DNA from: Pseudonocardia sp. C8
GTDB lineage: Bacteria > Actinomycetota > Actinomycetes > Mycobacteriales > Pseudonocardiaceae
Assembly: GCF_014267175.1 (NCBI RefSeq)
Contig: NZ_JACMTR010000002.1
Location: 4,365,501 to 4,429,500, forward strand
Direction: 5' to 3'
Length of the DNA: 64,000 nt
The notes under the pieces were generated by a model, which searched no databases, had not been told where the DNA came from, and saw nothing but the letters and a program-made list of their open reading frames with translations. A program made the translations under genes and the position numbers. This document shows positions 44,475 to 46,058 of this stretch, one piece after another (within the stretch, counting starts at the first letter, position 1; each line of letters begins with the position of its first letter).

Positions 44475-44864
44475 ATGGGTGGTCGGGTCGTGCACTTCGA
44501 GATCCCGTTCGACGACGGGGACCGCGCCCGCGCGTTCTACCGGGACGCGTTCGGGTGGAACGTCCAGGAGATGCCGGAGTTCAGCTACACCATGGCGGCC
44601 ACCGGACCGGCCACCGAGCAGGGGATGCCGAGCGAGCCGGGCTTCATCAACGGCGGGATGTTCGCCCGGAGCGAGGAGTGGCCCGCGGCCGGACCCGTGA
44701 TCGTCGTCGACGTCGAGAGCATCGACGACACGATGGCCCGGCTCACCGAGCTCGGGGCGACGTCGGTCGTGGACAAGCAGCCCGTCGGGGAGATGGGATT
44801 CGCGGCGTACTTCCGGGACCCCGAGGGCAACGTCATCGGGCTCTGGGAGAGCGCCGCGGCGTGA
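44475..44864 (+). CDS. VOC (glyoxalase/bleomycin-resistance fold) family protein
   Basis: A 129-aa single VOC unit: VVHFEIPFDDGDRARAFYRDAFGWNVQEMPEFSYTM at the start, PVIVVDVESIDDTMARLTELGAT in the middle and AAYFRDPEGNVIGLWES at the end. It resembles the SgaA/YesE-like group of unknown function. ATG after AAGGA. Divergent from ligA. Confidence 0.85.
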   Translation: MGGRVVHFEIPFDDGDRARAFYRDAFGWNVQEMPEFSYTMAATGPATEQGMPSEPGFINGGMFARSEEWPAAGPVIVVDVESIDDTMARLTELGATSVVDKQPVGEMGFAAYFRDPEGNVIGLWESAAA

Positions 44865-44873
44865 ACCCGCGGG

Positions 44874-44902
44874 TTGACAACCAGGTAAGCCTTACCTAAT
44901 GT
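44874..44902 (+). promoter_or_regulatory. Promoter overlapped by a DtxR/IdeR-type iron box
   Basis: TTGACA (44874-44879) and TAATGT (44897-44902) are exactly 17 nt apart. The spacer holds AGGTAAGCCTTACCT, a perfect 7-1-7 palindrome (44883-44897). Read on the minus strand as TTAGGTAAGGCTTACCTGG, 15 of 19 bases match the DtxR/IdeR consensus TTAGGTTAGGCTAACCTAA. A bound repressor would cover both promoter elements, so transcription should rise when iron is low. Confidence 0.8.
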
Positions 44903-44908
44903 CTGCGG

Positions 44909-44985
44909 TGTCGCTTCGTGGTGGGAGCGGCGCGTCAGTTCGGGACGGACGGCCCGGTCGCACCCCGGTGCGGCCGGGCCGTCGA
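44909..44985 (+). ncRNA. Candidate iron-regulated small RNA, about 75 nt
   Basis: The iron-box promoter predicts a start near 44909. The only structure downstream is a 16-bp hairpin (44948-44983; GACGGCCCGGTCGCAC, loop CCCG, one G-U pair) with no U-tract, which could end the transcript. No gene longer than about 46 codons follows for 770 bp. Mycobacteria have an IdeR-repressed small RNA (MrsI); this could be an analogue, though no sequence relationship is claimed. The alternative is a 46-codon leaderless frame from the GTG at 44908 that reads through the hairpin, with no recognisable family. Confidence 0.5.
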
Positions 44986-45099
44986 ACGTCGGCGGGATGG
45001 GCCGGGATCTCGGTGAGCACGACGTCCGGGCCGGAGTCCGGCGGGTGACGGCCCCGGAGCTGCGCCCGGACGCGCAGCACCGCGCGACCGTCGCTGAGA

Positions 45100-45660
45100 T
45101 GCGCGATGTGGGCCCGACGGGGACGGATTCGCGGTGATCGACTCCGTGGGGCCGGTCGAGGCGCACGTTCCCGCCGCGACCCAGGCGCATTCGCGCTGAT
45201 CGACTCCGTCGAGGCCGATCGAAACGCACGTTCTCGCCCCAGGCCCGGCAAGTTCGCGCTGATCGACTCCCCGACGCCGGCCGAAGCGCACCTTCTCGCC
45301 CCAGCCCCGGCGAGACCGCGCTGATCGACTCCCCGACGCCGGCCGAAGCGCACCTTCTCGCCCCAGCCCCGGCGAGATCGCGCTGATCGACTCCCCGACG
45401 CCGGTCGACGCGCACGATATCGCCGCCGCAACGGCAGGTTCGCGCTGATCGACTCCCCGAGGCCGGTCGAAACGCACGCTCTCGCCCCAGCCCGGCAGAT
45501 TCGTGCTGATCGACCCGCCGAGGCCGGTCGAGGCGCACACCCTCACCCCCACCCCCGGCGAGATCGCGCTGACCGATTCCCGACGCCGGTCGAGGCGCGC
45601 GATCTCGCCGCATCCCGGGCGCATCCGCGCTGATCGCATCCCTTGGAGCCACGCCGGATG
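45100..45660. repeat. 62-bp tandem repeat array 2 (nine units)
   Basis: The anchor GATCGACTCC (or close variants) starts at 45136, 45198, 45261, 45323, 45385, 45447, 45508, 45571 and 45632, giving steps of 61-63 bp. A second conserved block, GTCGAAGCGCACGTTCTCGCC-like, lies mid-unit. The 62-bp period excludes a conserved frame. The reverse complement of array 1 fits the same unit. Confidence 0.9.
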
Positions 45661-45677: not shown

Positions 45678-46058
45678 ATGTTGCGTCTCGGGTTCCCCGT
45701 CGTCGGCGTCACCGATCCGGACCGCGCCGCCGCCTTCTGGTCGGCCGCACTGCACCTCGAGGTCTCCGACGAGTGGGCGAGCCCGCGCTGGCGCACCCTG
45801 ACCGGCCCGGACGGCACCCATGTCCTCGGCCTCATGCGCAGCGACTCCCCGCCCGAGCCACGACCCAGGCTGCACCTGGATCTGCTGGTCGACTCCACCG
45901 ACGAGCAGGCCGCCGAGGTGGAGCGCCTGACCGGCCTGGGCGCCACCGTTCCCGACTGGAACGGCTATCCGGCCGATCCGGACTTCGTGGTGCTGGCGGA
46001 CCCGGACGGCAACCTGTTCTGCGTCGTCGACCTGAGCCGGGCGCCGTCGTCCGGCTGA
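45678..46058 (+). CDS. VOC family protein
   Basis: A 126-aa protein with one VOC half-unit pair: LGFPVVGVTDPDRAAAFWSAALHLEVSDEW, RLHLDLLVDSTDEQAAEVERLTGLGAT and FVVLADPDGNLFCVVDL. It is close to the glyoxalase-like (Glyoxalase_6) group. Function unknown; 26 bp before prfC, possibly co-transcribed. Confidence 0.85.
   Translation: MLRLGFPVVGVTDPDRAAAFWSAALHLEVSDEWASPRWRTLTGPDGTHVLGLMRSDSPPEPRPRLHLDLLVDSTDEQAAEVERLTGLGATVPDWNGYPADPDFVVLADPDGNLFCVVDLSRAPSSG

Follow-up and report, generated by a model that had tools for sequence, protein, structure and literature searches.

What does a promoter carrying an iron box do when it leads to a hairpin instead of a gene? Such an arrangement had been picked out in a 64,000-nucleotide stretch of the Pseudonocardia sp. 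C8 genome (hereafter the window) by a sequence-only reading, which proposed a candidate IdeR-controlled small RNA (sRNA). Comparison with relatives supports that proposal, as operator, core hairpin, linker and terminator-like hairpin are all kept. We think it very likely that the locus is the gene of a trans-acting, IdeR-controlled sRNA of about 75-80 nt that pairs with the leader of the aconitase gene acnA, which lies outside the window, to save iron. Our confidence is high that the RNA gene and its IdeR box are real, good for acnA pairing across the Pseudonocardiaceae, and moderate for acnA pairing in Pseudonocardia itself. The operator, the IdeR gene, the conserved non-coding core, its structure and the acnA antisense matches are direct outcomes of computation.

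On the + strand, to which all window features belong unless noted, a -35 hexamer TTGACA (44874-44879) is separated by 17 nt from a -10-like hexamer TAATGT (44897-44902), and the -10 distance predicts a transcription start at 44908-44910. This promoter had been called ideal; its hexamers and spacer are as described, but TAATGT has three of the six letters of TATAAT and a strict sigma-70 scan came up empty. Other copies of the locus often read TAACCT or TAACTT in that place, and the T, T and G of the -35 position are kept in 93%, 77% and 73% of 44 genus copies. The IdeR-like palindrome reported for the promoter spacer, the 15-bp AGGTAAGCCTTACCT, was found where expected, and the IdeR/DtxR box CCAGGTAAGCCTTACCTAA (44881-44899) overlaps both spacer and -10. 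The 19-bp DtxR/IdeR pattern TWAGGTWAGSCTWACCTWA, at up to three mismatches, has a single match in the 64-kb window, this one (two mismatches), and had none in 100 dinucleotide shuffles. In two published studies, a 19-bp box TTAGGTTAGSCTAACCTAA over the promoter marks the IdeR/DtxR regulon (PMC1382209, PMC8464063), and the window locus has its box in that position. The regulator is encoded as well: a DtxR-type C-terminal domain occurs at three places in the genome, and its IdeR (L425:1309-2028; G000:C2:3735589) has both DtxR domains, PF01325 and PF02742, and matches PDB 7b1v at E 4e-95. That structure is the IdeR of Saccharopolyspora erythraea, with complexes solved on TTAGGTTAGSCTAACCTAA (PMC8464063); the genus Saccharopolyspora, among the matches listed, also carries the sRNA.

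From 44910 the sequence runs as GTCGCTTCGTGGTGGGAGCGGCGCGTCAGTTCGGGA and then into the 16-bp hairpin. Its first 36 nt (44910-44945) form a conserved core, near-invariant in the genus and present family-wide. The core comprises a 5' hairpin (44910-44931), recognised by its fold and by compensatory changes, with an 8-bp stem and the loop GUGGUG (44918-44923), followed by a linker, GCGUCAGUUCGGGA (44932-44945), which antisense matches in acnA leaders mark as the predicted acnA-pairing seed in most genera. The long hairpin noticed earlier is real, with 16 pairs including one U-G wobble around a 4-nt loop (44948-44983); fold and alignment A3 show it as terminator-like and variable in sequence among copies, no U-run stands 3' of it, and a terminator scan returned no classical terminator. 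In the fold of 44905-44990 (-57.1 kcal/mol, z -3.74) a single-stranded linker joins the 5' hairpin to the long one. The loop GUGGUG is unchanged throughout alignments A2, A3 and A4. Across 36 sequences the 8-pair stem is paired in 99.3% of cells and two pairs have changes in both partners. Either value arose in 2 of 500 column shuffles, and slid alignments paired 43-66%. With so little variation in the core, covariation gives a thin signal: 42 of 500 shuffles of the genus alignment matched the observed result, and one slid family alignment scored 0.059 against 0.055 for the true stem. In one diverged copy (G128) the stem is, judged by eye, rebuilt further with the loop retained.

The genome of strain C8 holds three copies, at the window locus and at two other loci (L002 and L003) with an identical core, an equally placed box and different terminator hairpins; these two fold with z of -6.41 and -5.27. 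The sequence-only reading had passed over these two loci, the 5' hairpin and the conservation. A 118-nt query found a match in 59 of 60 Pseudonocardia genomes, and by our reading of the match table 31 of the 60 have at least two core-covering places, with a maximum of five. Some copies are paired closely, several pairs being separated by 150-300 nt or by about 1.0-1.1 kb. In the 44 genus copies (47 matches minus three sliding-match artefacts), conservation is 98-100% at 35 positions of the 36-nt core and 91% at the last. One Pseudonocardia draft (G046) has four copies of equal score and identity, on contigs C42, C41, C40 and C16 (L014 being the first), which may represent a segmental duplication or a mobile element. 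Diverged 62-nt repeat arrays with GATCGACTC-like motifs adjoin two of the three C8 copies, downstream of the sRNA in the window (45085-45642) and upstream of it at L003 (1647-1974).

How far does the RNA reach? Of 100 Pseudonocardiaceae genomes searched with a 38-position covariance model (R1), 94 gave a match at E<=0.01, and 90 of these did so at E<=1.5e-7. We count the sRNA in 92 of these genomes, representing 43 of 46 genera, a figure that omits two weak boxless matches (G061, G100) and includes two diverged boxed ones (G088, G128). A scan of named genomes matched at least 119 stretches; the 80 named stretches among the matches listed presumably all bear Pseudonocardiaceae names, the exceptions being a 'Nocardia sp.' and a 'Pseudonocardiales' record, and Amycolatopsis orientalis and A. 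rifamycinica are among the carriers there. An IdeR box with at most six mismatches lies upstream of all 83 copies at the 80 named loci among the matches listed. The mismatches number 2-6 overall and at most four in 77 of these 83 listed copies, and the box keeps its distance within 2 nt in 79; among mononucleotide-shuffled upstream sequences of the same listed copies, 8 of 4150 had a box with at most six mismatches.

Outside the family the trail ends. In a sample of 200 genomes from the order, R1 at E<=0.01 matched 57, namely 29 Pseudonocardiaceae and 28 others with weak scores; the best of the latter (L085, 2.2e-4), the only one of the 28 inspected, has no box and was rejected. Two of the weak boxless non-family matches, L117 and L085, share the linker letters GCGCGTCAGTTCGGG exactly. 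A box-plus-core model (R2) matched 15 of 121 order genomes, all Pseudonocardiaceae, and gave five weak matches in 61 genomes of another family of the order (f8), none credible on inspection. Among 394 genomes of the class, R1 at 1e-4 matched four: three Pseudonocardiaceae and one boxless 31-bit match (G417), which we treat as chance, though its linker letters agree. The order, f8 and class samples searched thus appear to hold no credible relative outside the Pseudonocardiaceae. A phage origin was also considered and set aside, with 0 exact pattern matches in viral_contigs.

The family is apparently new and undescribed. Rfam 15 places only three tRNAs above gathering score in the window, its seven sub-threshold matches at the locus fall far below gathering score, and it assigned no family to five relatives of the sRNA. 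A search for literature containing the core or linker letters found no paper, and titles and abstract openings yielded nothing on a Pseudonocardiaceae sRNA of this kind or on a link between IdeR, an sRNA and aconitase. For S. erythraea, 265 intergenic sRNAs have been predicted (PMC3827479); because the part of that source available does not include the full list, the sRNA may already stand there unrecognised.

Could the locus encode a peptide instead? Leaderless genes are numerous in Actinobacteria, and a 49-aa open frame begins at 44899, so a short leaderless peptide from the ATG at 44899 or the GTG at 44908, with the hairpin merely a terminator, has to be weighed; the GTG had been named as the alternative in the sequence-only reading, which suggested asking whether hairpin or reading frame is conserved. 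The RNA features are conserved and the start codon and frame are not. Of the 44 genus copies, 3 have ATG at the 44899 position; at the 44908 position 18 have ATG, GTG or TTG, with GTG accounting for 12. Codon positions of the core are all equally near-invariant, and the stem has compensatory changes. Across genera the spacer between loop and linker measures 4, 5 or 6 nt (in 1, 64 and 18 of the 83 named copies among the matches listed), and therefore no frame is kept. Since start codon and frame, the marks of a leaderless small protein, are lost and the stem changes are mostly compensatory, the locus reads as RNA: judged by these alignments, a conserved peptide is refuted, and we hold a leaderless peptide of any kind to be extremely unlikely. 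Promoter, hairpin and terminator-like stem could also form a 5' leader or attenuator through which IdeR controls the gene downstream, with no independent RNA, and the downstream called ORF is indeed on the same strand in 14 of 74 loci among the matches listed. Yet in the other 60 of these listed loci the next ORF, as called by a simple ORF caller, lies on the opposite strand, and the downstream genes, named by eye among the matches listed, vary by genus (superoxide dismutase, a GH16 enzyme, others). In the window, as had been observed, no + strand gene follows soon: counting only ORFs with a family match, the next is a glyoxalase-like gene at 45678, 0.7 kb off beyond the repeat array, with shorter + strand ORFs in between. 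The upstream gene, a 129-aa VOC (glyoxalase/bleomycin-resistance-like) protein (44475-44864; PF00903, PF22677), lies outside the sRNA. Opposite-strand downstream ORFs and changing neighbours therefore make a leader very unlikely and a stand-alone RNA gene the most likely reading of the comparison.

Outside Pseudonocardia, among the matches listed, the sRNA often sits between a same-strand MarR-MFS transporter pair and a convergent superoxide dismutase gene; the neighbour clusters, named by eye, hold 52 and 43 proteins, and the superoxide dismutase motif recurs in 38 of the 80 listed loci.

Which mRNAs might such an RNA reach? We scored acnA leaders (-100..+20) by the longest stretch perfectly antisense to the core, using the genus form of the core for two Pseudonocardia genomes and the common family form for the others. 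Both acnA and LeuC loci were taken from 16 genomes, followed by five further acnA leaders and then acnA from 30 chosen genomes; nine of the latter without a good model match (eight without the RNA, plus G128 with its diverged RNA) were kept apart from the final 35, one genome (G069) was dropped at a contig edge, and the leader of G061 came from the later leader set. Over the 35 RNA-bearing genomes the longest matches add up to 317, where dinucleotide shuffles give a mean of 222.4 and, in 1000 of them, a maximum of 242, a comparison that overstates independence because the genomes and their orthologous leaders are related. The mean longest match is 9.06 nt, and matches of at least 9 nt occur in 19 of the 35 leaders (shuffle mean 1.31, maximum 5 in 1000 shuffles); the best, TTCCCGAACTGAC, is 13 nt long. 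Outside Pseudonocardia (the tally of matched core positions excludes the two genomes of that genus), the longest matches of at least 8 nt all fall in the linker, extending about one base into the stem at most. Seven other 120-nt acnA windows, from -460 to +500, gave means of 5.2-6.4 nt, with 9 nt reached in 0-2 genomes; on its sense strand the leader averaged 5.0 nt and no genome came to 9 nt. These controls make a strong case that the acnA signal is specific in position and strand.

The signal is uneven among genomes. Thirteen of the 35 leaders have only 6-7 nt, individually at chance level. The acnA leader of strain C8 matches over 8 nt, CCCACCAC at -25, and does so to the loop (shuffle p 0.18); a second Pseudonocardia leader also reaches 8 nt (p 0.11), with CCCACCAC among its 8-nt matches. 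Duplexes of the C8 leader with loop and with linker both come to about -18 kcal/mol, energies calculated without shuffle control. In one genome (G070), among 1055 unselected ORFs in 1.6 Mb, acnA and a TetR-type gene share the longest match, 11 nt, and acnA ranks 182 of 1055 by duplex energy over the full core. Energy fails to single out acnA, and the claim therefore depends on how long the perfect antisense is, where it lies and that it is conserved. Antisense to the mRNA of an iron enzyme, the mark of the RyhB-like class, is thus present in acnA leaders as a prediction, weak in Pseudonocardia itself.

Two readings keep the RNA and question its target. The acnA motif might be the site of some other regulator and match the linker in antisense only by coincidence, the sRNA having its targets elsewhere: orthologous acnA leaders share ancestry, and near-identical stretches occur in G063, G070 and G083. 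Matches of at least 9 nt, however, stand anywhere from -82 to -23 relative to the start and differ in which parts of the linker they cover, and this variation in position and extent argues for selection. Moreover, the three genomes of genus g3, which amount to one evolutionary event, have neither the RNA nor the acnA site. We regard such a borrowed site as improbable. The RNA might instead act mainly by binding a protein, as a sponge or regulator RNA, with the acnA matches secondary; the loop GUGGUG never changes in A2, A3 and A4 while most acnA matches use the linker, and constraint extends over the entire core, beyond what a single seed requires. Against this, acnA gives a strong signal with positional and strand specificity, its longest matches lie in the linker, and the loop may serve as a second seed, so protein binding as the main role also seems unlikely to us.

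Genus g42 weighs against pairing with acnA, our preferred reading. Its three acnA leaders (L399, L401, L403) match the loop in antisense over 9-13 nt, up to GCTCCCACCACGA, yet the three genomes yielded no RNA, the sole weak match examined (L406) being boxless; we predict from the leaders that g42 has a diverged RNA. Two further genomes with no RNA found (G075, G143) have acnA matches of 7 nt. A broader scheme, which we put forward tentatively and consider possible rather than probable, is that the RNA has two interchangeable seeds, linker to acnA in most Pseudonocardiaceae and loop to acnA in Pseudonocardia and g42, so that the target is kept while the pairing site moves, and that the Pseudonocardia copies, as many as five, drive a wider iron-sparing regulon.

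Other candidate targets fared less well. LeuC, an Fe-S enzyme of the window named earlier as a possible target, did not hold up: 2 of 15 leuC leaders, that of C8 included, have 9 nt or more (mean 6.7 nt; 15 of 19 leuC-type loci were scored, and single values shift with the start and core form chosen). The C8 leuC start region (window 16192, - strand) has CGAAGCGAC at +5, which could pair over 9 nt with the sRNA 5' end and is absent from the rest of the leuC leaders scored. Superoxide dismutase, the frequent neighbour, was rejected with at least 9 nt in 3 of 42 leaders; in one of its leaders (L128) the 10-nt CCCACCACGA stands immediately upstream of the ribosome binding site. In G070, 22 genes have at least 9 nt of antisense, 18 of which were Pfam-scanned. 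At 9-10 nt they include a 4Fe-4S FAD oxidase, a 2Fe-2S subunit, HemD, PhoX and a type 2A encapsulin, alongside an aldo/keto reductase, a DegT aminotransferase, a transporter, a MarR protein and a NUDIX protein. The presence of iron proteins in this set is only suggestive.

Taken together, these results suggest a course of events for which we infer transcription, an iron response, the direction and mechanism of control and any further targets. When iron is plentiful, Fe-loaded IdeR would sit on the box over the promoter and keep the gene silent; when iron falls, IdeR would leave and the sRNA be made. The transcript would fold into the 5' hairpin with its GUGGUG loop, the single-stranded linker GUCAGUUCGGGA and the terminator hairpin, and the linker (in Pseudonocardia possibly the loop) would pair with the 5' leader of the acnA mRNA. 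Pairing would block ribosome entry or expose the mRNA to RNases, and with less aconitase, a 4Fe-4S enzyme, iron would be kept for essential uses.

Similar logic is known elsewhere. RyhB of Escherichia coli, which is Hfq-dependent, and IsrR of Staphylococcus aureus are Fur-controlled, iron-sparing RNAs aimed at iron enzymes including aconitase; the Pseudonocardiaceae sRNA is likewise predicted to aim at aconitase, is unrelated to either in sequence, and would answer to IdeR, not Fur. PrrF1 and PrrF2 of Pseudomonas are iron-repressed, duplicated and Fur-controlled; some of our copies also lie close together, though only in some Pseudonocardia genomes, and we know of no sequence common to the two systems. 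In Corynebacterium glutamicum, acn is a target of the protein RipA, which there has the role that an RNA would fill in the Pseudonocardiaceae. DtxR controls RipA as a second regulator acting on iron-rich enzymes, and ripA and sdhCD boxes have been described (PMC1382209). The closest parallel is MrsI (ncRv11846), a mycobacterial IdeR-controlled sRNA of about 100 nt with an apical loop seed and a terminator, which adjoins blaI and has reported targets bfrA, hypF and fprA (PMC8628891, PMC11188477). Both RNAs have an IdeR box at the promoter and a terminator or terminator-like hairpin and are similar in length, and both would share an apical loop seed and iron-sparing logic, whereas here the predicted target is acnA and copies number up to five. 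Nor is blaI a neighbour: the window copy adjoins the VOC protein and repeats, and the main neighbour clusters elsewhere, judged by eye among the matches listed, are other genes. At three blaI loci (L109-L111), in genomes we take to be Mycobacterium, R1 with filters off scored at best 8.2 bits, with no match at the RNA, and the boxed stretch beside blaI differs in sequence from our sRNA; by these comparisons the two RNAs are unrelated in sequence. Near blaI in one of these presumed Mycobacterium genomes lies a Guanidine-III riboswitch (L111:361-428, - strand). By analogy, the Pseudonocardiaceae sRNA probably works like MrsI, RyhB, PrrF and IsrR, as an iron-repressed RNA against iron-using enzymes.

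Iron-sparing sRNAs are little known in Actinobacteria, mycobacterial MrsI being the one case we met in the literature. If our reading is true, the RNA would be a second such actinobacterial sRNA, unrelated to MrsI in sequence and spread across nearly a whole family, one that includes antibiotic producers such as Amycolatopsis orientalis, A. rifamycinica and Saccharopolyspora. The host bacteria are not known to have Hfq, and because its 36-nt core is near-identical across genera, the RNA would be a good model for sRNA action in such hosts. The S. erythraea IdeR regulon list left out any box lying over 500 bp away from a start codon (PMC8464063); the sRNA family may explain orphan IdeR boxes, and its conserved predicted target, acnA, makes the proposed iron-sparing role readily testable.
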